Shown here in pieces: positions 5,576 to 59,802 of a DNA stretch of 64,000 nucleotides (positions are counted from its first letter, which is position 1; every line of letters begins with the position of its first letter). The position numbers were made by a program, and so were the translations under genes. This DNA comes from Pseudo-nitzschia pungens (taxonomy: Eukaryota > Bacillariophyta > Bacillariophyceae > Bacillariales > Bacillariaceae), in NCBI GenBank assembly GCA_037355855.1, contig CM074759.1, positions 186,001-250,000 on the forward strand, read 5' to 3'. A model generated the notes under the pieces. That model had not been told where the DNA came from. It did not search any database and saw only the letters and a list, made by a program, of their open reading frames with translations.

Positions 5576-6196
5576 GTAAAATTACTGGTACGAGTATCAG
5601 CAGCCGTACCGTACGTACCGGTACGTACCGTATCGTTCTGTATTCATTCTGAGCCAAGATAGTTACGTACTGAGTAAGGTTACGGTAGGGTTGGGGATGT
5701 TAGAACCAGAAAATGAATTGATTCGAATGAGTCGACTCACCCCTCGGATGTCAACCCAAGAACATTTTTGCCTATTTTCGTCCCGATCCGGCGTCGCACA
5801 TCGCATCGCATCTCCCATCATACAAGCAAGGTACATGAAGTAAATCCTTAGTGGTACCTGGTACTCGTAACCTTGTACGTAAAAGTTACTTGAAGCGGTA
5901 CAGTAATTATTCAATACGCGTACAGGTACGAATAAGGTTACATTACAATCGCATTCTTGCGTTGTACCGGTAATTTACGATTGTTTCTGAGAATGAATTG
6001 TTGACTGAGAGGATCGACAATGAGATTTTTAGGATTTACGAAGTTAATCTTACCGGTACAGCAAGATTAGAAGTAAGGATTAAAAAATAATTTTAAATGA
6101 AAAAAAAAGATTTTTTGTTGCTCCCTTGCCCTTCTTTTGGGCCGTCCGTACGGTAAAGTAAGTCTTAGTTACTGTACAACCTACCGGCATAAAAGC

Positions 6197-6231
6197 TTAC
6201 GCTTTCATAAAATATAATCGTGAAAGCGTAA
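6197..6231. other. 11-bp perfect inverted repeat (hairpin)
   Basis: TTACGCTTTCA (6197-6207) and TGAAAGCGTAA (6221-6231) are exact reverse complements with a 13-nt AT-rich loop. It lies about 280 bp before the recombinase ATG. It could be a recombinase or regulatory site at the left side of the element; no function is shown. Confidence 0.6.
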
Positions 6232-6514
6232 CTCACACCGTCTGTCATTCTACCCTATCGATGAGCTGGTTCCCTCCTCCCCTAAGTCTTAAGGATAGAG
6301 CTAAAAGAATTATGTGTTTAAATTCCCATCATCAGCACCACCGAAAGCCGAAAAAAAAAACAAGACAAGACGAAAGAAAACACAAGACGATCATCGATTG
6401 AAAACAACAAGGACGACATCGATTGAAAACAACAAGGACGACGACTGTTGTTATTACAAACAATAAAACAACAACAAACAGGAACGTTGAGTTACAAGAG
6501 CAACGTGAACGACA

Positions 6515-9500
6515 ATGTTTTTCTTTCGTCCAAGGCGCAAGGGAGACAGTTCTTCCAACAGAAATACATCACCAACATCCACTATCAGTAATTCAAAATG
6601 CAATACAACTACAACCGCAACAACCAACAGCGATTCCAACAGCAAAGTCGATTCAAACAACGTCAGTTCAAACAACGTCAGTTCAAACAACGTCAGTTCA
6701 AACAACGTCAGTTCAAACAACGTCAGTTCAAACAACGTCAGTTCAAACAACGTCGATTCACACAACGTCGATTCACACAATGTCGATTCACACAATGTCG
6801 ATTCAAACAACGTCGATTCAAACAATGTTGACGATTCAAACAACAACGTCAATTCAAACAACCTTGATTCAAACAACGTCAGTTCAAACAACGTCAATTC
6901 AAACAAGAACGTCGATTCAAACAATGTCGATTCAAACAACGTCGATTCAAACAACGTCGATTCAAACAACGTCGATTCAAACAACGTCGATTCAAACAAT
7001 GTCCATTCAAACAACGTCGATTCAAACGTCGACAATGCAAATGCCACAGACATTAACGCTGCAAACACGAGCATCGGAAACACAAACTATGTGGAAGAAA
7101 CCAACATTCTAGACTCAAACGCTGTGGTTATTGTTGACAACGCTGACAACATCAGCAATGTAGTCAACAGCAACATTGAAGATCCAGACAATAATATCAA
7201 CGTTGTAACAGCAATTGTAACGCCAAACAAAAGGAGCAAGGTGATGAATCCATACACACGCGCATCCAGAGAAGCAGAAAAAAAAAGATTGAGGGCACTT
7301 AACAAAAAAATTGCTGCGAATGGTGCAGCGCCAAAAACAGCTTCAAAAACAGCATCAAAAGCAGCGCCAGAGCCAGCATCTAATAAGAAAGGAACTGCAA
7401 ACAAAAGCAACAACATACATGGGACTGTTCAAAGCCTTTGCAGTAGGGATATTCTACACAAGGACAACCACGACAACACAGCTATCAAACTGTATAATCA
7501 ACTCAAGGAAGTTACAGGGCATGGCCAGCTCAAAAACTTCGAAGATTTGACCTACGTTGATATTGCAAATGACAATGTGGTCTACATCATCACTGACCAT
7601 TGTAGACGACTTGCTACAACGTTCATCCCAAAGGGGTGGTCAAAAGAAGAAGGGTGGAACCAAGAGAACCCTGAAAGGCTCACATTCAATACCATCATAA
7701 AGTATGTGGAGCCATTGTTTCAAATTCTTCAAAATTGTTTTCCAAGGCATCCAAAATTGGTTAGTCTGAAGGAGGGTCAATCTTGGTGGTCTACAGTCAA
7801 AGCCAATCTCAAAAAAGGATACAACAAGGAAAAATTCAAAGGTGTTGATGAAGAGTTTGACCCAAAAACAGCAACTCTGTACATCATAAACAAGCCAATA
7901 CTCACACGATATCAGTTTGGAAAAATGCATTACATTGAGAGGGCTGATTTGTTTCACATCAATGACAGCTTGATGAAAAATGCTAAACAACTTGGATGTC
8001 GCAACTATGAGCACAGAGCCCAGCTTCTCACTAGTGCTCTTGCTGTAAGTAGAGGAGGGGAAGTTAAATGGATGAGATTCTCATTCTTTGTTTATGACCC
8101 GAGGTTTTCAGTGATTGATACAAGTTGGTGTGAACTCAAGACAGGAAATTTCTATGCCATGCCAATGGTGAATCATGCAAATCCTGCAAACTTTCAAGTG
8201 GACTGGCCTCATGCAATGGCATGTGCCTTTGCAGTTGATGATGATATTCTGAATCGCAAATGTGAGGTGAATCGTGATTTTGTATGGCCAAAGTTACACC
8301 AAATTTCAGATAAGACTGTTGCAACTCTTTTGGGACGTATTGCAAAAAAACACCTGCCATCTGACATGCCAGATGATATGAAAGCAACATACACATCTAA
8401 AATGTGGAGAAAGGGTGGAACAACACTACTTTCTTTTCATGATCAAGTGTCTCCTGAAAATGCAACTGCAAGGTCTGGGCACAAAATGGCAGGCAACCAC
8501 TATGACACTTATGTTTCCAACGCAGGAATTGGTTTGACATTGCCTTCAGCAATGGCTTTGAATGAGTATTCTGACTGCAGAATGATCCCAACCCCGGCAT
8601 CTTTTGATTTGCTTCCTCTACAAGATAGACCTGGAATTGTTTTGGTTTCAGTGATCATATCTGAGTTTCTTCCATCCAACTTACCAGACTTTCAAAAAGA
8701 GGGGAGGTTGTTTAAGGTCCTTGAAAATATGACAGCAAGTGTGATCATGTCGTATAATCACATGGTTGAGCAGATGGGCCACAGTGATCCTGTGATCCAC
8801 AAGTTGGAGAACATTTTCAAGCGTCGGGATGAGCTTGGTCTGGCTTTGCTCAGGAAATGGTCAACTTGTATGTGCTCTGGCTTTATTGCATCAAATGAGA
8901 GACCAAAAGTGGTGGATGCTGCAACAGCTCCACAGATTGTTGATGCATTAAATCAACTTGGTAACAGTGTTTCCATGATGAAACAAATTCAACGTGATAC
9001 TGTCCAGTTGGTTGAATCACTCAGTTCCAAGCTGGCTGCTGTAACAGATGAGCTTGAGAGAGTTTCTGATGAAAACAGGAAGCTGAGACAAGCGATACAG
9101 ACACCACCAGGTTCACCATCAAAACAACAACAGCCTTCACGGATGGTTGGAAAAGATGATGACACCTCTGTTTTTGTGGACTCAAAACAGCAACATCCTC
9201 CTCTACTGGTTATGAATGTGGGAGATTTGGGTAGAAATCCAATTGCAAAACAAAATATAAGTGGTGTGACAATTCAAGACTGCATTAAATTGCTCTTTGA
9301 ATCCCCAAAGCATCCAATCAAAAATCATGTTCAACCCAATGGGACATTTATGTTTGATACACTGGATTTACCATTTGGAATGAAGGAGAAGAGCAAGTAT
9401 TACTCTGCAATGGAAGTGGTGTTCCTTTCATGCAAGCCTAAACAACTCCAGCAATTGAGGACTGAAGTGCCATTGGATACAGATATTGATGACCTTGCAA

Positions 9501-9799
9501 AATCAGTCCAAGACCAAGCAATGTTGATGATGTTTCAGCTGGAACAGGGATGTGCCTCAAAGACAACTGCCAAAAGTTCTGAAAAACAAAAGCCAAAGAA
9601 AAGGAGAAGAAAGAACCCAGACAATCCAAGTCAGCAATTGAAACCATTTCTGTTAGGATTTGGAAAGAGGGCACTGAAGTACAAGAAAGAAGAGTGTGGA
9701 TCAAAGACGTGGAGAGAGAAATCAATGTGGAAGTGTCTCAAGTCCAAAAACTTTCCAATGCCTTCAATGCTCCCTCAGCAGGAGGATGGTACTCTGTGA
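6515..9799 (+). CDS. Tyrosine recombinase (Crypton/phage-integrase fold) with Asn-rich N-terminus
   Basis: A 1094-aa single-exon ORF. Residues 20-200 are Asn/Val/Ser/Asp repeats from a 15-bp DNA repeat. A basic segment (240-300) follows, then a helical core-binding-like region (310-430) and a catalytic domain (about 470-680). Visible catalytic signature: Arg513 in SRGGEV, Lys542 in ELKTG, Lys629-x-x-Arg632 (KMWRKGG) in place of His-x-x-Arg, His656 in SGHKM, and the likely nucleophile Tyr666 (DTYVS; Tyr663 is the alternative). The spacing Arg632 to His656 (24) and His656 to Tyr666 (10) is close to XerD-type enzymes. A coiled coil at 800-860, an unassigned domain at 900-1010 and an NLS-like KPKKRRRK near 1026 complete it. 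The gene is more AT-rich than its neighbours, which suggests a mobile or transferred origin. It faces the RusA gene, with stop codons 57 bp apart. The exact element class is inference. Confidence 0.85.
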   Translation: MFFFRPRRKGDSSSNRNTSPTSTISNSKCNTTTTATTNSDSNSKVDSNNVSSNNVSSNNVSSNNVSSNNVSSNNVSSNNVDSHNVDSHNVDSHNVDSNNVDSNNVDDSNNNVNSNNLDSNNVSSNNVNSNKNVDSNNVDSNNVDSNNVDSNNVDSNNVDSNNVHSNNVDSNVDNANATDINAANTSIGNTNYVEETNILDSNAVVIVDNADNISNVVNSNIEDPDNNINVVTAIVTPNKRSKVMNPYTRASREAEKKRLRALNKKIAANGAAPKTASKTASKAAPEPASNKKGTANKSNNIHGTVQSLCSRDILHKDNHDNTAIKLYNQLKEVTGHGQLKNFEDLTYVDIANDNVVYIITDHCRRLATTFIPKGWSKEEGWNQENPERLTFNTIIKYVEPLFQILQNCFPRHPKLVSLKEGQSWWSTVKANLKKGYNKEKFKGVDEEFDPKTATLYIINKPILTRYQFGKMHYIERADLFHINDSLMKNAKQLGCRNYEHRAQLLTSALAVSRGGEVKWMRFSFFVYDPRFSVIDTSWCELKTGNFYAMPMVNHANPANFQVDWPHAMACAFAVDDDILNRKCEVNRDFVWPKLHQISDKTVATLLGRIAKKHLPSDMPDDMKATYTSKMWRKGGTTLLSFHDQVSPENATARSGHKMAGNHYDTYVSNAGIGLTLPSAMALNEYSDCRMIPTPASFDLLPLQDRPGIVLVSVIISEFLPSNLPDFQKEGRLFKVLENMTASVIMSYNHMVEQMGHSDPVIHKLENIFKRRDELGLALLRKWSTCMCSGFIASNERPKVVDAATAPQIVDALNQLGNSVSMMKQIQRDTVQLVESLSSKLAAVTDELERVSDENRKLRQAIQTPPGSPSKQQQPSRMVGKDDDTSVFVDSKQQHPPLLVMNVGDLGRNPIAKQNISGVTIQDCIKLLFESPKHPIKNHVQPNGTFMFDTLDLPFGMKEKSKYYSAMEVVFLSCKPKQLQQLRTEVPLDTDIDDLAKSVQDQAMLMMFQLEQGCASKTTAKSSEKQKPKKRRRKNPDNPSQQLKPFLLGFGKRALKYKKEECGSKTWREKSMWKCLKSKNFPMPSMLPQQEDGTL
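6645..7030 (+). repeat. 15-bp minisatellite inside the recombinase gene
   Basis: About 25 copies of a 15-bp unit of the type GTCAGTTCAAACAAC or GTCGATTCAAACAAC, encoding NNVSS and NNVDS pentapeptides. Copies are homogenised in blocks, first GTCAG then GTCGA, which indicates recent slippage or unequal exchange. The reading frame is kept throughout. Confidence 0.9.
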
Positions 9800-9856
9800 A
9801 AGATTATATTTAAGGGAAACAAAACTTCACACTATATAGTAGATAGACATTCAAAA

Positions 9857-10441
9857 TTATTCTTCATCATCCATTGTCAGGTCAATGATTTCATTGACGC
9901 TGCTTCCATGATTGTCTGGCACCCACAAATGGCCATAGTCCTTTGGTCTCTCGTCAGTAGTTTTTTTAATCCGGAGCAAAGTAAGTCCCTTGCCACAATT
10001 TACTCCATACGTCTTTAACACTTCCAACTTTACAACTTGTTTGTCATTTTCACAGAGTGAAACACCATCTTTGTTCTTCAACTGCAAGCAGTCCAGTACA
10101 AACTTTGCCAAGTTGTCAACGTCATTTGGTATAGGACCATTCCTCAAGGGGAAAATGAACTCAGCTTTTACCTTTATATTGTTGTTGCCGAATGATTTTG
10201 CAGCAACACCATGTAATGATTGGGCTTTGGAGATGGCGTCAACAAACTGACGTTGTACCTTCTTCTGTGCATTGAATCTGTATGCCTTCCCAGGGCGTCC
10301 TCCGCTTCGTTTCATTGATTGAGGTTTCCCAATCACGGTCACAAATATACCTTCTTCTTTGCTTGTGAATGGCATGGATTTGATTGCATCAAAATGGGGG
10401 GGGGTGTTTGTGGCTTGTTTTCGTGTGAGAGGAGGAGTCAT
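9857..10441 (-). CDS. RusA-family Holliday-junction resolvase with C-terminal SIM-like motif
   Basis: The first in-frame ATG is at 10441, giving 194 aa; the open frame extends four codons further only with TTG. The fold signature is that of RusA endonucleases: VIGKPQSMKR near the N-terminus, AYRFNAQKK, a strand KVKAEFIFP, then PNDVDNLAKFVLDCLQ, and later ENDKQVVKLEVLKTY. Asp107, Asp109 and Lys113 match the D-x-D-x3-K spacing of Escherichia coli RusA Asp70/Asp72/Lys76, and Asp133 fits Asp91. Known family activity: Mg-dependent symmetrical cleavage of four-way junctions. The last residues, EIIDLTMDDEE, match a SUMO-interaction motif (hydrophobic core plus acidic tail), unusual for a phage-type enzyme and suggesting nuclear adaptation. 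The gene is convergent with the recombinase, and a tandem array fills its upstream region. Confidence 0.85.
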   Translation of the reverse strand: MTPPLTRKQATNTPPHFDAIKSMPFTSKEEGIFVTVIGKPQSMKRSGGRPGKAYRFNAQKKVQRQFVDAISKAQSLHGVAAKSFGNNNIKVKAEFIFPLRNGPIPNDVDNLAKFVLDCLQLKNKDGVSLCENDKQVVKLEVLKTYGVNCGKGLTLLRIKKTTDERPKDYGHLWVPDNHGSSVNEIIDLTMDDEE

Positions 10442-10497
10442 GTTATTCACCAATGAGATCTAAGTCCACCGGGCGTTGATTGTAGATGGATTCGTTC

Positions 10498-10930
10498 GGT
10501 CCAACGTAGATCGATTTGTTCGTTCGAACGAACGTAGATAGATTTGTTCGTTCGGTCGTTGATAGATTTGTTCGTTCGGTCGTTGATAGATTTGTTCGTT
10601 CGGTCGTTGATCGTTGATCGTCGATCGGTCGTTGATAGATTTGTTCGTTCGGTCGTTGATAGATTTGTTCGTTCGGTCGTTGATAGATTTGTTTGTTCGG
10701 TCGTTGATCGTTGATCGTCGATCGGTCGTTGATAGATTTGTTCGTTCGGTCGTTGATAGATTTGTTCGTTCGGTCGTTGATAGATTTGTTCGTTCGGTCG
10801 TTGATAGATTTGTTCGTTCGGTCGTTGATCGTTGATCGTCGATCAGTCGTTGATAGATTTGTTTGTTCGGTCGTTGATAGATTTGTTCGTTCGGTCGTTG
10901 ATCATTGATCGTCGATCATCGATCGTCAAT
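10498..10930. repeat. 24-bp minisatellite with higher-order structure
   Basis: Units of GTTGATAGATTTGTTCGTTCGGTC (24 bp) are repeated about fifteen times. They are interrupted at intervals of roughly 96-120 bp by GTTGATCGTTGATCGTCGATCG, so a higher-order period exists. It lies directly upstream of the RusA gene. ORFs of the type SLIDLFVR through it are repeat artefacts. Confidence 0.9.
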
Positions 10931-11489
10931 CGTTGATTCATTCGACGGATTAAAACGTTAGTTTAAAACGTTTTAGAGAGAAGAAAATGCTGTTTGTTAG
11001 ATGCTGGTGGGGGACTGAGGACAACGATGTATCACATTATTTGCTGCAGTTTTTGTACCTTTGTGTGGATGAGTGTGGTTGTTAATGGAGTGTTGTTCAG
11101 CGTCGTCGTAAATCAAGTTCGATCCTTTTTTATTTTAATGAACGAAAGGTGAATTTATTTCTCGAGAAAGGTGAATTTATTTCTCGAGCGGCGCATATTG
11201 TTGTGTAGTAATCGTTTGGTCGTACACCTCTTTTTTGTTGCTTAGATTCAAATCTTTTACTTATTGCACCCTTTTTTTGATGCTTATGTTGTATGTGCCT
11301 TAATACTGAAAATCGCTGATAATTTTTGATATTTCTACTTAAGAGTAACAAGCTCGCTGGAAAAACAGAAGGGGTCCCTAGGAAATTGAGCAAAAAATTG
11401 AAATGAACCTCTGGGATACCAAGGGAATTTTCTGTGAATGAGTCTCGTTTTCACAACTCCATCGTGAACAGGAATTTTCCCTGGAGGAG

Positions 11490-11532
11490 CGCCGGCTTCG
11501 CCGGCGTGAACGATTCACGCTCCGCGTGAATC
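11490..11532. other. Two adjacent perfect hairpins with 3-nt loops
   Basis: First hairpin: CGCCGGC (11490-11496), loop TTC, GCCGGCG (11500-11506). Second: GATTCACGC (11512-11520), loop TCC, GCGTGAATC (11524-11532). Both have a GC-TNC-GC apex like the hairpin at 815-833. They may be remnants of a small mobile hairpin family or an RNA 3' end. Confidence 0.7.
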
Positions 11533-11598
11533 CGAAAAAATTCCGATACAAGTAATTTCTGGATGGATCCAACGAATAAACAACATCGTTATTGTTGT

Positions 11599-11640
11599 GT
11601 AAGATTACTCGTACGGGTAACCTTACCGGTACCGGTACGA
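11599..11640. promoter_or_regulatory. GTAA-NN-TTAC dyad cluster upstream of the 1798-aa gene
   Basis: GTAAGATTAC at 11599-11608 and GTAACCTTAC at 11617-11626, followed by CCGGTACCGGTACG. They lie about 220 bp before the ATG of the next gene. The palindromic form fits a dimeric DNA-binding site, but this is inference from recurrence in spacers. Confidence 0.35.
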
Positions 11641-11839
11641 ACACATACAAATACTTTGTGATACTACGGTAATTACACGTACGAGTAGATGGCCAAGGAT
11701 CAGCGGCCCTTTATGCGTTGTACGGTACTCACCTCTTGGTGACTACACTGAACACGTACCGGTACAGCCCAAACCCGGAAACCGAAAGAGTACTCACAGT
11801 GGTTACTTCGGTTCCAAACCCAACAATTTCCATTCCACG

Positions 11840-14800
11840 ATGCAGCAACAACCACGGGAACGGGAAGGGCAAGAACAGGAGCATTTACGGGAGCAGTGGC
11901 AGCAGGAGCAACATCGACATCGACATCGATGCAACAGCGGTGATTCTGCACTCTCGGCGAAGGCGAAGGGAATCATCGATCCCATCCACTTTCTGACCGC
12001 TGCTCTGCTGTTTGATAAGGACCATGTTTCTGCTTCTGTTGGGCAGTCGCAGTCGCAGTCCCAATCACAAGAAAAACCACAACCACAAACACAAACACAA
12101 ACACAAATACGCACAAACACCACCACTGCCATTGTCGCAAAACTCCTTCCCCTCTTCCCATCCCGGACCCGAAACGAGCTGGAGGCAGCTGTTCTCCGCC
12201 ACGTTCCTGTTTCCGCGAACAGCACTGAACAACCAATCGCAAGAGTTGCAGCAGTATCGTCATCATCGTCATCAGCAACATCTGCTATTGCTTCCTCTTC
12301 TACCTCCGCTTCCGAAACTACAGCACACTCAGATGGACACAAGTCAGCAGTGAATTCTCTAGATTCGAGGATTTGCTCCCCGGAGAAGCAGACCGCGGAT
12401 TGTCATTCCAACGGGGCTGACAAGGCCGCCGATGATGACGATGACGATGACGCAAACGTCCTGTTCGAATCGGTTCCGGAGGGAGGACTGGTCCTAAAAC
12501 AAGGGCATCCCGGCAACGAGACCTACGACTCCCTCGTGCGCAAGCACCGCGCCTTTGTCACTCACTGGAACCGAACCGCAAACGAAGAGGCAGCGGCAGC
12601 GGCTCATCTTTGGAAGTTCGACGCTGATGTTGATGCGGTCGCAGCAACGAAGCGAAAAGGCAATGGCAACACTAACAATAGCAGCAACAATAACAGCAAC
12701 AATAACATGGCGAGCGGCAACACAAGCACCGAAACCACCGCCATCAACACCCCCGTTGATGCGGAACGCTTGCTGCTGCTGGCCCGTCTAGTGGTGTCCG
12801 AGACTCCCGGAAGGTTCTTGAGGAGCCAGCCCGAGCAAAAACGTGAAATGAGCAACAAACACAAACTTGAGGGCGAACACGAACACGAAATGGCAACCGA
12901 GAGCGATCGGGGGGCCCTGGAGATGGGGCCGCCTCTGGCGCAGTCGCAGTCGCAGTCGCAGTCGCAGTCGAAACCACCCTCTACGCCACTGCAAACGCCA
13001 CTTCCACTTCCAACGCCAACCCCAACACCAACTCCGAGTGGGACCCCTTCCTCCCAAAGGTCCGGGTGCGATCGGTGGGTGGACATGGGAAACGACGACG
13101 CCGTGGAGGTCACGGTTTGGGCCCTGGCGCTCGGGCCGCCGCGGGCATTCTCGCTCCCGAAGACGAAGCCACAGGCACTGCCACTGCCGCAGTCTCGGTC
13201 AACGATGCCGCCAGCGCGGAGTGGGATCTCTTCCTCCCCGGGGTCCGAAAGGGCACGAATCTCACCGGCATTGTCCGCCACCGATCGGGATGTTCCGGTT
13301 CCGTCTCATCCACCTCCTCCTCCTCCTTCACCATCGGCGACCTCCCCATTGCGCGAGAAGAAGCCACCACCTCGAACACCGCAACCCTCACACGGACCAC
13401 CACCGGAACGCTCAATGCTAGAGCCACAGTCGCAGCCGCAGACCCAGGACCTGGTGCAGCCGAATGCGGAGCCGCTGACCCAGCCTCGGGCAGAGTCTCA
13501 AATGCAAACCCAAAGGCAGACACAGACACAGACACAGACACAGACTTTGGTGAAGCCGCATGCTCAGGAACAACAGGCAAACGCTGAGGTGCAGCCGCCG
13601 ACCAAGCTGCAGACCCAGCCCCAGCCCGAAACCCAGCCGCAGGTACAGCTGCAGGTGCAGCGGCAGACCCAGCCTCAGGTAGAGTCTCGTGTGCAATCGC
13701 AATCCCAGCCGCAGACCCATCCTCGGGTGCGGTCCCAGGCGCAGTCCCAGCCACAGACCCAGCCGCAGGTACAACCGCAGACCCAGTCACAGACCCAGCC
13801 TCAGGTTCGGCTACAGGAGCAGCTGCAGCTGCAGACCCAGACATCGGTGGAGCAGGTACAGGCTAAGAAACATATGTATACTCAGCCTCAGAACCAGCCA
13901 CAGGTGAAGCGTTGGGTAAAGCCTCAGGTACAGCCGCATAACGAGACTCAGACGCGGTCGCAGCCAACACGGAGTTTAACCCCTTCTTCCCCGGGTTCCG
14001 GAAAAGCACACATATCTACATCGTCCACCAATCGGAGTTGTCGGACTCCTCCCCCTTCTCCGATCGAGTCCTCCATTTTTCGCGAGAAACAATCGCCTCC
14101 TCGTACTTCTTTGCAATCATCCAATGCTCTAGGCGCGGAACCGGGGGTCGGAGCCGGCAGTGACATCGTTGTTCGGGATTCGGAGTCGACGACGAAAGCG
14201 AAGACGACGACAACGACGACTGTCACTACCACCGCACCTACTGCTTCCAATCATCCTCTGCCCGAGAATTTGGCATCGCGGCAGTCTTCCGGCCAACGCG
14301 TGGCTCCGGTGTCCGCAACATTAACTGGAAAGGGCGATGCAATCTGGGAACCGAAATTTGTTTGTCGGCGGCCCATTCCTCAAACGAAGAAACCACCGCC
14401 CAACAGCAGTATGAGAAGCAGCGTCGATCCGTTTGTGGAAACAATAGTAGCAGGTGTTGCTGGCACCGGTGCTTTGCGGAACCGTTCAGCATTGGAGACT
14501 CAACACAGTGCTCCTGGGGACGAAACTCCACCGTCAAGACAAAAACAAAAACAAGAACAACATTCCATCCAAAGTATAGTTCGAAAGCCTCCTGCGTTTC
14601 AATGTTCCTCCGGCTCAAGTCACCATGACGGTGGTGATGGTGATGGTGATGATCCTATGGCTGCCGTAGCTGTAACATTCAGCACCGCAAAAAAACAGCA
14701 ACTGCCGAACGATTTGTCACAAGATCTACGAAGGGAGGTTATCGGCGTCGACGATCGAGTCCGAGATCCTCTTCCATCAGATTCGCAACTGTGCTCGAGC

Positions 14801-17236
14801 GTTGACAACCAAGGGGGATCAGAGCCGCCAGACACAAAATCTGCTTCAACGACCCATGGGGCTCGTCCTGATACCGATCGAGGTCTGCTACCTTTGAACA
14901 AAAAGCGAAAATCCGATGCAACGATCGACTCGGTGGCCGGAGCTATGCCAGTTCCCAGAGCTAAAGGGTCTGTCCGTCTCGAAGGAACTGTGGTGTCAAA
15001 TTCTAGGTCCACTACGCTTGCGGTTCGTCCCGATCATGGTCTGCCACCTGTGAGCAAAAAGCCAAAACCCGATCAAAAGAACGATGCGATGGCCGGAGTC
15101 GTGCCAGTTCTTGGAACTGAAGGGTCCGTCCTTCTCGAAGGAACCGAGCAATCCGATTCTAAACAAAAACCCGTTGCAACGATCGATGTGATGACCGGAG
15201 CCGCGCCAGTTCTTGGAACTGAAGAGTCCGTCCTTCTCGGACGAACTGAGGTATCCAACTCTACGCCCACCGCCCTTAGGGTTCGTCCCGATCATGGTCT
15301 GCCACCTTTGAGCAAAAAGCGAAAATACGATCAAAAGACCGATGCGATGGTCAAAATCACGGGAACCCACGAAAATCAAGTCGCCGTCCTTGCCGAGGAA
15401 ATAGACCGCGAAGCCGACAGGAACAGCAGAATCACCACCAACAAGTCCAACCACGATGCCGTTCTGTCGAATCCGTCCAATGCCCCCCGAAGCAAGGTTG
15501 CCGTGGAAATCCCGACCGTATCAAAGAATCGTCCATCCCCCTCCCCCTCCAAACACGGTTCTGGATCCGATAAAACTAACAGCAACAACATGACCAAATG
15601 TCTTGCATCTTTCAACAAGTTGGGAATTTCTGAGTTGTTGAACGACAGACGCAGCCGATCGAGGCGTCCCCCGCTCAAGTACAGCTCCGAGTACATTGGT
15701 GAGGCTGCCGCGGAGGAGGAGGAGGAGTCATTGTCGTCGTGCTCTTCCTCGTCGTCCTTCCAACTCTTGCCCACCAACGATAACGATCCTCCTCATGGGA
15801 GAAAGAGGATGTTGACGAGGGCGACGACGACGACGATGACGAAGGAGAATCTGAACAACGCCACCCAATCGTTCGGTGCCGCTGCAAGCGTGAACGCGAA
15901 CCGAACGAGAAACAACAACGCCTGCTCCCTCGGAGTATTGCGACCTACCCCGTTACGGGACACAGCTGCCGCTGTTGCGATTCGGTCCATTTTCTGCGGA
16001 ATGGAGTCCACCAGCGAGCAAGCCCGCCACGGTCACCTGGCGAAACTGGTGTGTTGGTGTGATTCCCACGAGGAGAAACGGGTCGAACAAAGCCAACGAC
16101 GTTCTCATCGCCAACGAACGCTAACAGCAACAAGAGCAGCAGCAGCAGCAGCAGCAACGACAACAACGACAACAACGACGCTAAGGACCGATGAGTTTTG
16201 GTCGAGATTTATGGATCCGCGGGATTCCGGACTCGCAAAAATGCTGCTCCATATTCAAAACCACCGGAACGATTGGTACGCGGTGGTGCATTCCTGTGCG
16301 GTACTCAGGTTTTGCTATTTCTACTCTCCCTTGAAAGTCTCCAAAGAAATTCTCGAGCGAAACGGCCTTGAACTACTGTTGAGCGTAAACAAAACATATC
16401 AAACCCAAGTCTCCCGCTCGTTGACGAGCAGCAGCGGCAGTAGCAGCAATGTCATTTGCATCGACTTAATTGACGACGGCGACGGCGACGGCGACAATTT
16501 GCACGACAAAGAGGAAAGAATCATCAAGGAAGCGCTGAACACCTTAATTGTTGTTTGGGGAGCAATGAGAGATGTAACGGCTTTGAACAACCAGCTACTA
16601 TTTTCAAGTCTTACAAGTGCCGGTGCCACCTTGAACAAGGAACACACGAGACAAATCATCGAAGGCTGCTTTGAAGCTCTCGTTTTTTTGAACCAACTTG
16701 GGGATCGCGAGACCCATCGTGCTTCCTTCATCCTCCGACACGTTTTGGAAACGCTCACCGACGCACTTACCACAACCGAAGCACGAGGACAAGCATCAGA
16801 TCCTCCGTGCAACACAACACAGTGGAAGACCGCCATCGCGTGCTGCCTCTTGGCCCTGAAAACCGATAAGTCCCAACGCTGGAGAGCGGAAGGAAGGGCT
16901 GGACGCTCGTTCTGCCGAGCGGCCGTGTCGTTCTTTTTGCGGTGTTATAGAAACGCTGCAGATGACAACGGTCGTTTCGTCACTAGTGTCCAGGAAAACG
17001 AACAGGTAGTACTATTTTGTGTGGATCGCCTCCGACGATATCCTCGAAAGATACCAACGATCGCTTTCAGTGAGCTGCTGGTCTTGTGCCAGGTTCGCGA
17101 CAAGAAATTCGTTAGAGAACGATCGGGCCTCCGTGCGGTGTTGACCGGCATTATCGAGTCCAAGGACGTCAAACTTCAAACGGTCAAACTCTTTGCGAAC
17201 ACATTGCTAAAGGATTTTACCGAGAAAACGAATTAA
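11840..17236 (+). CDS. Large Gln/Pro-rich, probably nuclear protein with helical C-terminus
   Basis: 1798 aa in one exon from the ATG at 11840. Residues 1-950 are low-complexity: QSQSQSQ and QTQTQT runs, Pro-rich blocks and repeated segments of the form PSSPGSGKAHIS. At about 1010-1170, three to four imperfect repeats carry RPDHGLPPLSKKRK, an NLS-like core, and GSVLLEGTE. From about 1450 the sequence becomes ordered and helical (DEFWSRFMDP, AVVHSCAVLRFCYFYSP, EALNTLIVVWGAMRD, ASFILRHVLETLTDAL, ELLVLCQVRDKKF), resembling armadillo/HEAT-type solenoids. A SIM-like VICIDLIDD followed by acidic residues lies near 1537. I do not recognise an orthologue; a WAPL-like or other chromatin role was considered but is not supported by any diagnostic motif. 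Likely nuclear by inference from the NLS-like repeats. Confidence 0.75.
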   Translation: MQQQPREREGQEQEHLREQWQQEQHRHRHRCNSGDSALSAKAKGIIDPIHFLTAALLFDKDHVSASVGQSQSQSQSQEKPQPQTQTQTQIRTNTTTAIVAKLLPLFPSRTRNELEAAVLRHVPVSANSTEQPIARVAAVSSSSSSATSAIASSSTSASETTAHSDGHKSAVNSLDSRICSPEKQTADCHSNGADKAADDDDDDDANVLFESVPEGGLVLKQGHPGNETYDSLVRKHRAFVTHWNRTANEEAAAAAHLWKFDADVDAVAATKRKGNGNTNNSSNNNSNNNMASGNTSTETTAINTPVDAERLLLLARLVVSETPGRFLRSQPEQKREMSNKHKLEGEHEHEMATESDRGALEMGPPLAQSQSQSQSQSKPPSTPLQTPLPLPTPTPTPTPSGTPSSQRSGCDRWVDMGNDDAVEVTVWALALGPPRAFSLPKTKPQALPLPQSRSTMPPARSGISSSPGSERARISPALSATDRDVPVPSHPPPPPPSPSATSPLREKKPPPRTPQPSHGPPPERSMLEPQSQPQTQDLVQPNAEPLTQPRAESQMQTQRQTQTQTQTQTLVKPHAQEQQANAEVQPPTKLQTQPQPETQPQVQLQVQRQTQPQVESRVQSQSQPQTHPRVRSQAQSQPQTQPQVQPQTQSQTQPQVRLQEQLQLQTQTSVEQVQAKKHMYTQPQNQPQVKRWVKPQVQPHNETQTRSQPTRSLTPSSPGSGKAHISTSSTNRSCRTPPPSPIESSIFREKQSPPRTSLQSSNALGAEPGVGAGSDIVVRDSESTTKAKTTTTTTVTTTAPTASNHPLPENLASRQSSGQRVAPVSATLTGKGDAIWEPKFVCRRPIPQTKKPPPNSSMRSSVDPFVETIVAGVAGTGALRNRSALETQHSAPGDETPPSRQKQKQEQHSIQSIVRKPPAFQCSSGSSHHDGGDGDGDDPMAAVAVTFSTAKKQQLPNDLSQDLRREVIGVDDRVRDPLPSDSQLCSSVDNQGGSEPPDTKSASTTHGARPDTDRGLLPLNKKRKSDATIDSVAGAMPVPRAKGSVRLEGTVVSNSRSTTLAVRPDHGLPPVSKKPKPDQKNDAMAGVVPVLGTEGSVLLEGTEQSDSKQKPVATIDVMTGAAPVLGTEESVLLGRTEVSNSTPTALRVRPDHGLPPLSKKRKYDQKTDAMVKITGTHENQVAVLAEEIDREADRNSRITTNKSNHDAVLSNPSNAPRSKVAVEIPTVSKNRPSPSPSKHGSGSDKTNSNNMTKCLASFNKLGISELLNDRRSRSRRPPLKYSSEYIGEAAAEEEEESLSSCSSSSSFQLLPTNDNDPPHGRKRMLTRATTTTMTKENLNNATQSFGAAASVNANRTRNNNACSLGVLRPTPLRDTAAAVAIRSIFCGMESTSEQARHGHLAKLVCWCDSHEEKRVEQSQRRSHRQRTLTATRAAAAAAATTTTTTTTLRTDEFWSRFMDPRDSGLAKMLLHIQNHRNDWYAVVHSCAVLRFCYFYSPLKVSKEILERNGLELLLSVNKTYQTQVSRSLTSSSGSSSNVICIDLIDDGDGDGDNLHDKEERIIKEALNTLIVVWGAMRDVTALNNQLLFSSLTSAGATLNKEHTRQIIEGCFEALVFLNQLGDRETHRASFILRHVLETLTDALTTTEARGQASDPPCNTTQWKTAIACCLLALKTDKSQRWRAEGRAGRSFCRAAVSFFLRCYRNAADDNGRFVTSVQENEQVVLFCVDRLRRYPRKIPTIAFSELLVLCQVRDKKFVRERSGLRAVLTGIIESKDVKLQTVKLFANTLLKDFTEKTN

Positions 17237-49447: not shown

Positions 49448-50800
49448 AGGGTCGGGTCGGGGAATGCCTCCTCGGACGCGAACACGGACGCGAACACGAT
49501 GAACACACACTCCTGACGCCGCGGACCCGCGTCGCTTATCACAGTCACGGAGGAATCTTTGTTTCTTAGCCCAACGAATCAATCAATCAATCATCCGTGC
49601 CGGGAGTTCGTTGGAGTGCAAAGGAAGGTCGTTTCGACGGGTCGGGAAAGAGGCTCCAACCCTTCCCTTCAGAAGGTGAATCCATCAAGCCAGTAAAGCA
49701 TCCAATCAATACCAATACTACCGGTATTGTACGGTAGAATCGGAAATCGGACATGGGTCGAAACCACACTTTTGAAAAGTGTGAATATACACTTTTTTAA
49801 CTTTGCTACTAATACTTACACTCCTACCCACGGAAACTACAAACAACAACCCAACAATCCCAACCCCAACAACAACAACAACAACAACAACAACCCCAAC
49901 CCCAACAGTGTTAAGAGTGGTGCGGTCGAGGTGCAAGTGTTTCGGTGATTCGATTGCTGGAGAAGAAGAAGAACATGGGTAATGTATGTAAGGTTACCGG
50001 GTACGGTACCGGTAGTTTAAAAGTGTGGGTAAAAAGTGTGGATTAGACCTAAAAATAAGTGTGTTAACGAACGGGTAAATTACCTGGGGAATCGGAACCA
50101 CCACCCGGCCTACGTACCACCCGTATGTACGGTATCGTACACCAGAGATGCCATGGATCTGCTTGTCATTTTGATATGATAGATACAAGACATAGGATCG
50201 TGTATTGCCCCCGTGCGACTTATCAAGATCCAACACTGGTACCTTAAAGGAGAAGAATACCGTTTTTCACAAATAATGCGATTACACCATTCGATGGGAT
50301 GTCGATGGGATGTCGATGGGATGCTGATTGGACAGGATGTCAGTAGAATGGGACACAAATGAGATGTGGCTACCGGGGTGGACAACCCGAAGAAGTTAGA
50401 TTAGACGACAGACGACCATAATGGAATGGTTGGAGTGAAGCGATGAGAGACGATTGTAAGGTTACTCGTACAGGTAATTACTGGTAAGGTTACTGGTACG
50501 GGTGCTTGATGCTTTTCACTAGGATCGAATCAAATTTAGGGGATAAATTATATAAGTTACCATGACGGGGCGACAACAGTCAAAACGGACGACCGAACTT
50601 GTGGGACAGCAAGACGCTTGTTCTTCTTTGTTTTGAGGCATGTTCGACCGCATTCGAATGTCGCAAGCTTTGTTCCGTATGCGGATCAGAATGTTCCGAC
50701 TTAAAGCTCCGTCTAATCGTGATTTTCATTGCGGATCGAGGAATGTTCACGAGCTGTTCATTACAGTCCCATGCCGTTCCGAGATTACCTGTTAGTCGAC

Positions 50801-51235
50801 ATGTTCCGGCAGAAAAGAGTTGAGACCAAATACATCACAACACAGCACAGAAACCTTGTTTCAGAATCGGAGATTGCGACCGATGTGTTCCATCGAGCAG
50901 GTTCGCGCTTACCATACTAGTTCCTATGTTGTGGAAACGGTGACTCGATTTGAGACGACATGTTCCGGCAGAAAAGAGTTGAGACCAAATACATCACAAC
51001 ACAGCACAGAAACCTTGTTTCGGAATCGGAGATTGCGACCGATGTGTTCCATCGAGCAGGTTCGCGCTTACCATACTAGTTCCTATGTTGTGGAAACGGT
51101 GACTCGATTTGAGACGACATGTTCCGGCAGAAAAGAGTTGAGACCAAATACATCACAACACAGCACAGAAACCTTGTTTCGGAATCGGAGATTGCGACCG
51201 ATGTGTTCCATCGAGCAGGTGCGCTCACGAAGGTA
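50801..51235. repeat. 159-bp tandem repeat, about 2.7 copies
   Basis: Copies begin with ATGTTCCGGCAGAAAAGAG at 50801, 50960 and 51119; spacing is exactly 159 bp both times and the copies are nearly identical. 159 is a multiple of three, so an ORF with a 53-residue repeat passes through (50820-51347), but no start context or domain supports it. Confidence 0.92.
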
Positions 51236-52009: not shown

Positions 52010-52620
52010 AAAGATATTGTTGGATGGATCTTCGTCACGTGTAGCTTTTGTTTCGTGCCTCGGGAAACCGCGCACCGAAAGGCCGGCATTTCTTTCATCC
52101 TAGTAGTAGTGGTGGCTTTGACCCCTTTTGAAATTCAATGCATAGAGCGAATATAGTGTCCAAGAGCCTGGCAACGAACGACCATTCCACGGTATCACCA
52201 CAAGGTAAAGGTCATTGGCGTGGATACGGATGCGCACCAAAGGCCGTAACCTTTCATCCAGGGAGTTGAAGCTTCGGCCCGTTCGGAAAGTCAAGGGGTA
52301 GATCAAATAAAGCAACCAAGAGCCTGGCAAGGGACGAACATTTCTCGGTATTACCACCAGCAAAAGGTCACCGGCATGGATACGGATGCGCACCAAAGGC
52401 CGACATTCCTATCATCCAAGGAGTTGTAGCTTCGATCCCTTCGGAAAGTCAATGGATAGAGCAAATAAAGTGCCCACGAGTTTGGCAACGGGTGACCATT
52501 TCTCGGTATCTCCACTAGCAGAAGGCCGACAGTTTTCCCATTCTCATACATTGCAAATGGGGACGGAAGCCTCACATGACTGCGTCCACCATTTTTCTTC
52601 GGAGTTCCTATCGTAATGTG
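52010..52620. repeat. Diverged tandem repeat of 156-158 bp, about four copies
   Basis: The words AGAGCCTGGCAACG, GATACGGATGCGCACCAAAGG and TTCGGAAAGTCAA recur with periods of 156 (52161 to 52317) and 158 bp (52317 to 52475), with much more divergence than the 159-bp array at 50.8 kb. A partial earlier copy starts near 52010. Confidence 0.8.
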
Positions 52621-59243: not shown

Positions 59244-59315
59244 TCCGATATGATGTAGGTGGTTAGCATACTTGCCTTTCACGCAGGATACCAGGGTTCG
59301 AGTCCCTGTATCGGA
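59244..59315 (+). tRNA. tRNA-Glu (UUC)
   Basis: 72 nt cloverleaf. Acceptor TCCGATA/TATCGGA pairs fully; D arm ATGT...GCAT; anticodon arm CTTGC-CTTTCAC-GCAGG with anticodon TTC; T arm CAGGG-TTCGAGT-CCCTG. CCA is not encoded, as expected for a nuclear eukaryotic gene. No intron. Confidence 0.93.
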
Positions 59316-59730
59316 ACGTTTTGCAGAATGCGCCTTTCACGTGGGTGCATTCTTACCGCATCGTGGAGTGTCAGTTTTGCATCCCGAAAGCAACCTCAAC
59401 AGGGAAGTTTTGCGAGATGTACAATATACAATTGAATCCAATCAATAACGAGCCAAGCGCTGCACCAAAGTGAGATCTCGCGCTTCCAGTTCCGAGGAGA
59501 CGTTGTGAGTTCGCACTGCACTCAAATCGTCATTCCATGTTCGTACGTTTTAGTTCAACCGGCTGAAAATGGCATCGTGGAAGCAAAGGAATACCATCGA
59601 CAGCAGTATTTCCACTCTCCTCGCAAAAGTTTTGGAGGGTTCAGTTCTTTGTTGAAAAAAGAGATATGTTGTGTATGATGCCAGGTTCCTCCAGCTGGCC
59701 TTGACATATGTTTCCACAAAAAAGAGAGCC
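59316..59730. other. Spacer between two convergent tRNA genes
   Basis: 415 bp without an ORF or repeat that I can support. Confidence 0.5.
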
Positions 59731-59802
59731 GGACGATATGAGGATCGAACTCATGGCCTTGCGATTAACAGTCGCACGCTCTACCAACTGAGCTAATCAT
59801 CC
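59731..59802 (-). tRNA. tRNA-Asn (GUU)
   Basis: On the minus strand, acceptor GGATGAT/ATCGTCC (one G-U pair), D arm GCTC...GAGC, anticodon arm TGCGA-CTGTTAA-TCGCA with anticodon GTT, T arm ATGAG-TTCGATC-CTCAT. CCA is not encoded and there is no intron. It faces the tRNA-Glu gene across 415 bp. Confidence 0.94.

Follow-up and report, generated by a model that had tools for sequence, protein, structure and literature searches.

The DNA analysed here is a 64,000-nucleotide stretch of the genome of the diatom Pseudo-nitzschia pungens (contig CM074759.1, positions 186,001 to 250,000; hereafter the window), and our interest centres on two convergent genes near its left end. The larger gene is located on the forward strand at 6515–9799, where one open reading frame (ORF) of 1094 codons without an internal stop encodes a putative tyrosine recombinase, recognized by its R-K-KxxR-H-Y signature and by the homologues P0001 and P0004. 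Facing it on the reverse strand at 9857–10441 is an ORF predicted to encode a Holliday junction resolvase of the RusA family with a C-terminal NEIIDLTMDDEE tail, which is assigned by its matches to PF05866 and phrog_140 and by alignments. This second frame also lacks an internal stop, and runs from an ATG codon at 10441 to 9857 to give a protein of 194 amino acids, or of 198 amino acids if a TTG codon at 10453 serves as the start. The uninterrupted frames suggest that both genes are intronless. A preliminary description of this DNA had reported the two ORFs together with R513, K542, K629, R632, H656 and Y666 in the larger protein, D107, D109, K113 and D133 in the smaller, 57 bp between the convergent stop codons, and a higher AT content than in neighbouring genes. 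All of the residues are present at the named positions, the interval between the stop codons (9800–9856) was reproduced, and the difference in composition holds in the measurements given below.

The RusA ORF scores 28 bits against the Pfam model PF05866 (cutoff 22.8, E 3.6e-6) and matches phrog_140, a family of RusA-like resolvases, with an E value of 9.8e-9. A search of 5.8 billion proteins revealed two relatives, P0002 and P0003, that share 59 and 57% identity with it. Of these, P0002 also passes the PF05866 cutoff with a score of 30.6, and P0003 scores 22.7, which is 0.1 bit under it. Residues D107, D109, K113 and D133 align with D70, D72, K76 and D91 of E. coli RusA (sequence taken from the K-12 record), which we take to be the catalytic residues of that enzyme, and all four are invariant in the three proteins of the present family. 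No NCBIfam family matches the ORF, and a sequence search of the PDB yielded matches at chance level only. The predicted membership of the small protein in the RusA family, with its active-site residues complete, is well supported by these matches.

Beyond the domain, the three RusA proteins have scattered residues in common until they converge on a shared IDLT end, with the termini EIIDLTMDDEE, EVIDLTLDHSSSL and EVIDLTE. The sequence (I/V)DLT is described as the core of SUMO-interacting motifs, and VIDLT occurs in PIAS1 (PMC4907222). The IDLT tail found in all three proteins resembles such a motif and might function as one. The protein also invites comparison with RusA of phages and of the E. 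coli prophage DLP12, with which it shares the Pfam and PHROG families and the same four catalytic residues. In contrast to those proteins, the one described here is eukaryotic, has a longer N-terminus and an IDLT tail with acidic residues, and is adjacent to a recombinase-type gene. A donor cannot be named because the best phage RusA match in a tblastn search has an E value of only about 1.

The large protein carries a 15-nt minisatellite with NNVDS-type repeats at residues ~43–171. Because this repeat fills the N-terminal part, comparisons were run from residue 240 or 296 onward. Among the 5.8 billion proteins, its relatives are P0001 (894 amino acids, 48% identity over the core; encoded on a contig of up to 6773 nt) and P0004 (596 amino acids, 41%), and the six signature residues listed above are invariant in all three homologues. 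The intervals between these residues are 29/87/3/24/10, compared with 28/88/3/23/9 in Cre, 23/73/3/22/9 in lambda Int and 24/72/3/23/9 in XerD. The latter values were measured on fetched sequences at catalytic positions whose numbers we presumed to be correct, and the letters at these positions were checked. Sequence contexts also fit, with R-x-G-E at the first arginine, K-x-x-R, and S-G-H...T-Y at the histidine and tyrosine. The protein thus has the order R-K-(H/K)xxR-(H/W)-Y with normal spacing by which the tyrosine recombinase superfamily is recognized, and it shares both order and spacing with Cre, lambda Int and XerD. It differs from these enzymes in lacking detectable overall sequence similarity to them, in carrying lysine in place of histidine, and in extending 428 amino acids beyond Y666, whereas the three known enzymes continue for 14–19 residues after the tyrosine. 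This C-terminal part is conserved in P0001. A signature with such spacing in a single sequence proves little by itself because 202 of 3000 shuffles yield one, and a signature that is invariant across three homologues arose in 4 of 20,000 column shuffles. On this invariant and correctly spaced signature alone, the large protein is very probably a tyrosine recombinase.

Other comparisons count against this assignment, beginning with the replacement of the first catalytic histidine by lysine in all three homologues. Lysine is tolerated at this position of tyrosine recombinases. The preliminary description had proposed hidden Markov model searches of both proteins. RusA exceeds its Pfam cutoff in such a search; no Pfam or NCBIfam family reaches its cutoff for the large protein. 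In addition, PHROG gave nothing below E 0.26 for this protein, and a sequence search of the PDB gave no match. Comparison by hhalign with 42 Xer-type sequences produced a score no better than those of shuffles (60 each in two runs). For the Xer-type set, 42 of 80 IMG/VR loci had been hand-picked with a preference for longer matches and the omission of some near duplicates; three of them with a stop or unknown residue were dropped, and Cre, Int and XerD were added to reach 42 sequences.

A block profile with flexible spacing, built from 40 sequences with Cre and Int excluded, places R513, K629 and H656 and misses the lysine and tyrosine anchors. For this profile, 11 of 300 shuffles reach the same score, nine of 12 unrelated proteins of the window exceed it when run singly, and other places are chosen when it is applied to each relative alone. 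An anchor is lost in the positive controls Cre and Int as well, so this test is weak in either direction. AlphaFold2 models from the three-sequence input are of low confidence, with mean pLDDT (predicted local distance difference test) values of 37.7 and 35.4. In the first model a strand ends at the lysine and a helix holds the tyrosine, and this placement carries no weight because the second model is without any strand. A Foldseek search with the first model revealed no match at E 0.001 or better, and matches are uninformative at such confidence.

Base composition links the two genes with each other and separates them from their neighbours. The overall GC content is 0.41 for the recombinase ORF and 0.43 for the RusA ORF versus 0.49–0.635 in 11 other long ORFs of the window. 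These raw values are weak evidence because the host non-coding DNA flanking the genes is also ~0.40–0.42. At four-fold-degenerate sites, the GC content is 0.28 in the unique part of the recombinase gene (346 sites) and 0.35 in the RusA gene (79 sites) versus 0.55–0.84 in the 11 host genes. This measure sets both genes apart from the host genes better than raw GC does, and in the same direction for both. The 11 host ORFs were hand-picked, leaving aside overlapping frames, the tandem-repeat ORF at 1–771 and a 344-amino-acid ORF that overlaps another, and their starts were assigned mechanically.

Both protein families are also rare, each with the two relatives given above. The protein-database search depends on shared short words, which limits its sensitivity, and within that sensitivity neither protein looks like a widely kept housekeeping gene given how few relatives were detected. 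Such rarity of both families fits a single element. The two genes share an outlying composition, converge closely and encode members of rare families, all of which supports their assignment to a single foreign block.

The extent of this block was estimated from the non-coding DNA. Words such as TACTAG, TAGTAC and TACCGG abound in the host intergenic DNA of the window, where a score for them has a mean of 0.16 and a lower quartile of 0.06. In the non-coding stretches beside the two genes this score is weak: the two bins at 6150–6449 have values of −0.17 and 0.09, the seven bins at 10500–11549 range from −0.10 to 0.05, and at 11550–11699 the score rises to 0.41. On this basis the block would extend from about 6150 to about 11550. 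The score is uninformative on the coding parts because host coding DNA lacks such words too (mean −0.02). In agreement with these values, a BLAST comparison of the flanks with the rest of the window gave matches at 6035–6060 and 11607–11653 only, placing host-type words right outside the block on both sides and none in 6061–6514 or 10454–11606. This absence of host-type words outside the two genes gives weak support to a single block. Its limits are approximate because the word profile was built from the same window and because the bin at 6300–6449 scores within the host range, a value that counts against the foreign-block reading; they are uncertain by several hundred bases, on the left more than on the right.

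Three structured or repetitive features lie in the non-coding parts. Near the left edge, at 6197–6231, is a perfect 11-bp inverted repeat with a 13-bp AT-rich spacer, for a total of 35 bp, which makes this 11-13-11 arrangement loxP-sized. None of 500 shuffles of the 616-bp flank produced such a repeat. The window contains five inverted repeats with an arm of 11 and a spacer of 5–15, and the other four are simple TAG/TAC repeats. A second copy of the 35-bp site is absent from the window, where matches to the arm with two or fewer mismatches otherwise occur at the number expected by chance, and its pattern has no match in IMG/VR. This repeat may be a recombination site or an operator. An iteron-like array of ~15 copies of a 24-nt repeat (10482–10917) adjoins the RusA start on its upstream side; GTTGATAGATTTGTTCGTTCGGTC units are interspersed there with GTTGATCGTTGATCGTCGATCG-type units, with a higher-order period of 97. 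All 12 matches to the 24-nt repeat in the window with three or fewer mismatches fall within the array, and none would be expected by chance. At the other edge, two adjacent hairpins at 11489–11532 form a candidate right-end structure (DNA fold of 11400–11560, z −4.2, 0 of 200 shuffles as good), and one inverted pair found by a repeat scan falls at the same place. The block also contains a perfect direct tandem duplication of 22 bp at 11144–11187.

We propose that these ~5.4 kb represent a Crypton-like mobile element with a RusA partner, a reading to which we assign a probability of about 0.5. The nearest described kind that we found is CryptonS, a group of transposons known from oomycetes and the diatom Phaeodactylum tricornutum, some of which carry a second protein, a C48/Ulp1-type (SUMO-type) peptidase (PMC3212892). 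The block resembles these elements in centring on a single recombinase-type protein whose C-terminal region is conserved, in its stramenopile host, in having a second protein, as some of them do, and in the lack of a DDE transposase or reverse transcriptase. Consistent with the last point, the block contains no ORF longer than 124 amino acids beyond the two genes, except for frames inside the minisatellite. The second protein is a RusA here and a peptidase there, a comparison made by description rather than by sequence. There is also a difference from the Crypton tetrad R-H-R-Y, whose counterparts here are R513, K629, R632 and Y666, with lysine in place of histidine in all three homologues. 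DIRS and Ngaro elements, in which reverse transcriptase and RNase H accompany the recombinase, differ as well, since the block holds no ORF of that size and Pfam detects no such domain in the large protein. Fungal Starships are a further example of eukaryotic elements that carry a tyrosine recombinase, known as the captain.

Several observations speak against the block being such an element. The gene pair is known from one locus only, and no terminal repeats stand out between the flanks, where the longest are 12 bp (direct) and 10 bp (inverted) and 200 shuffles reach 13 and 14. Cryptons end in direct repeats of 4–6 bp, mostly TATGG in CryptonS, and here TATGG and CCATA are both absent from 5900–6515 and 10454–11700, a result limited by the approximate ends of the block, at which short repeats are hard to call. 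Likewise, a search of the 64-kb window for second copies of parts of the block gave nothing beyond host-type words along the outer margins of the block and some matches of 15–29 nt to the two genes, which are attributed to chance. The preliminary description had inferred one element with both a junction-making and a junction-resolving enzyme. The identity of RusA, the recombinase signature and the shared composition agree with this idea; the mobility of the block and the recurrence of the gene pair are unproven.

Relatives were sought in other collections as well. None was detected among viruses in IMG/VR with two single proteins and three alignments as queries, and none among prokaryotes in GTDB by two alignment scans. 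These scans were seeded by 2–6 short peptide patterns each and may miss relatives, and because eukaryotes are excluded from them they say little about that domain. Plasmids in PLSDB, which are mostly bacterial, gave no match. No description of a eukaryotic element with both a recombinase and RusA was found in the titles and abstract openings of the open-licence literature matches listed, where papers combining the two terms concern, by title, phages or a bacterium, and a match to a eukaryotic virus is due to an author name only. A paper that combines RusA, resolvase and diatom deals with a phage, and other listed papers containing the word RusA are on a deer, cyanobacteria, phages and the sex chromosomes of Rumex. 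The earlier remark that its author was not aware of a described class with RusA is in line with this result, as far as the matches listed show.

The same locus could be explained by two neighbours that were acquired separately or evolve separately, in which case a recombinase element or its relic would lie beside a horizontally acquired RusA gene that serves recombination repair in the host. This explanation gains from the existence of a single locus, from the general knowledge that convergent genes with short spacing are common where genomes are compact, and from the conserved eukaryote-type tail of the three RusA proteins, which would suit a host function. It is also compatible with the relatives P0002 and P0003, whose only known contigs do not exceed 806 and 994 nt, respectively, and thus reveal no linkage. 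However, the two genes share their outlying composition and are similarly rare, and many more relatives would be expected of a host repair gene; we regard this explanation as unlikely. A lower likelihood attaches to the large protein being an unrelated, lineage-specific protein that mimics the signature, with the locus consisting of a RusA gene beside an orphan gene. Although the recombinase fold receives no backing from family libraries, profile comparison or models, and single shuffled sequences yield the signature at the rate given above, its invariance in three homologues, its Cre-like spacing and the fitting contexts at the arginine, lysine, histidine and tyrosine positions speak against a mimic, and we consider this very improbable.

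Diatom plasmids provide the remaining alternative, namely that an algal plasmid or virus-like element has left a copy integrated in the nuclear genome. In this case the 24-nt array would be the replication origin, the recombinase would integrate or resolve the plasmid, and RusA would resolve replication junctions. The plasmids pCf1 and pCf2 carry site-specific recombinases (PMC2873285, PMC9235467), and a title cited in PMC2873285 has them hybridizing to chloroplast and nuclear DNA. The iteron-like array and the AT-rich genes of the present locus would suit such an origin. The comparison with pCf1/pCf2 and the plastid genes serC and tyrC rests on the fact that mobile diatom DNA encodes site-specific recombinases there too, and integrated remains of it are found in plastid genomes (PMC2873285, PMC9235467). 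In contrast to the protein described here, the diatom plasmid recombinases are of the serine type (serC), and tyrC is Xer-like, a type whose profile found no match in our protein; RusA is not mentioned in the available parts of these sources, with which we compared the locus by description. Moreover, the block has no room for a capsid or polymerase gene, given the absence of further long ORFs noted above (shorter frames were not scanned for domains), and the PLSDB search, dominated by bacterial plasmids, was negative. We judge a plasmid or virus-like origin to be improbable.

A Crypton-like element with a RusA partner might operate as follows. The recombinase would act at a short core site, for which the 35-bp inverted repeat (6197–6231) is one possibility, and by strand exchange there it would excise the block as a circle and reinsert it. 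Four-way junctions might arise from exchange between unlike sites or from replication or recombination of the circle, and the element's own RusA would cut them. The IDLT tail might direct RusA to nuclear repair sites that are marked by SUMO, and the 24-nt array might serve as binding sites for the recombinase or for replication proteins. Tyrosine recombinases resolve their own junctions inside their tetramer; RusA, which cuts four-way junctions as a dimer, belongs to bacteria and phages. If the proposal is correct, a phage-type junction cutter with a tail of the SUMO-binding type would open another route for completing integration or for copying the excised circle, RusA would have been put to work in a eukaryotic nucleus, and a role for SUMO in the mobility of the element would be directly testable. 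More tentatively, the block might belong to a new class of eukaryotic DNA transposons that form four-way junctions with their own recombinase and resolve them with their own RusA, this resolvase being linked to the nuclear SUMO system through a SUMO-interacting motif conserved at its C-terminus. We view this extension as possible, and would not yet call it probable.

In the rest of the window, six of eight ORFs scanned have a Pfam match (ABC1 kinase, RING finger, dipeptidyl peptidase, RSN1-type channel, HAD phosphatase and, below the cutoff, TPR) and two have none, a content that indicates an ordinary eukaryotic neighbourhood. To the right of the block, an ORF of 1798 amino acids at 11840–17236 has no Pfam match and contains a SUMO-motif-like stretch, VICIDLIDDGDGD; its C-terminal part may resemble WAPL-type cohesin release factors. 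Four tandem copies of a ~191-nt unit occupy positions 1–771 and are open in frame on both strands; they may belong to a satellite or to the terminal part of a gene for a repeat protein. Tandem arrays are also present close together at 50797–51224 (period 159, 99% matches) and 52070–52525 (period 156, 77% matches). A search of the window with Rfam yielded two tRNAs only, and these genes, for Glu and Asn at 59244–59317 and 59730–59802, are located 412 bp apart on opposite strands.

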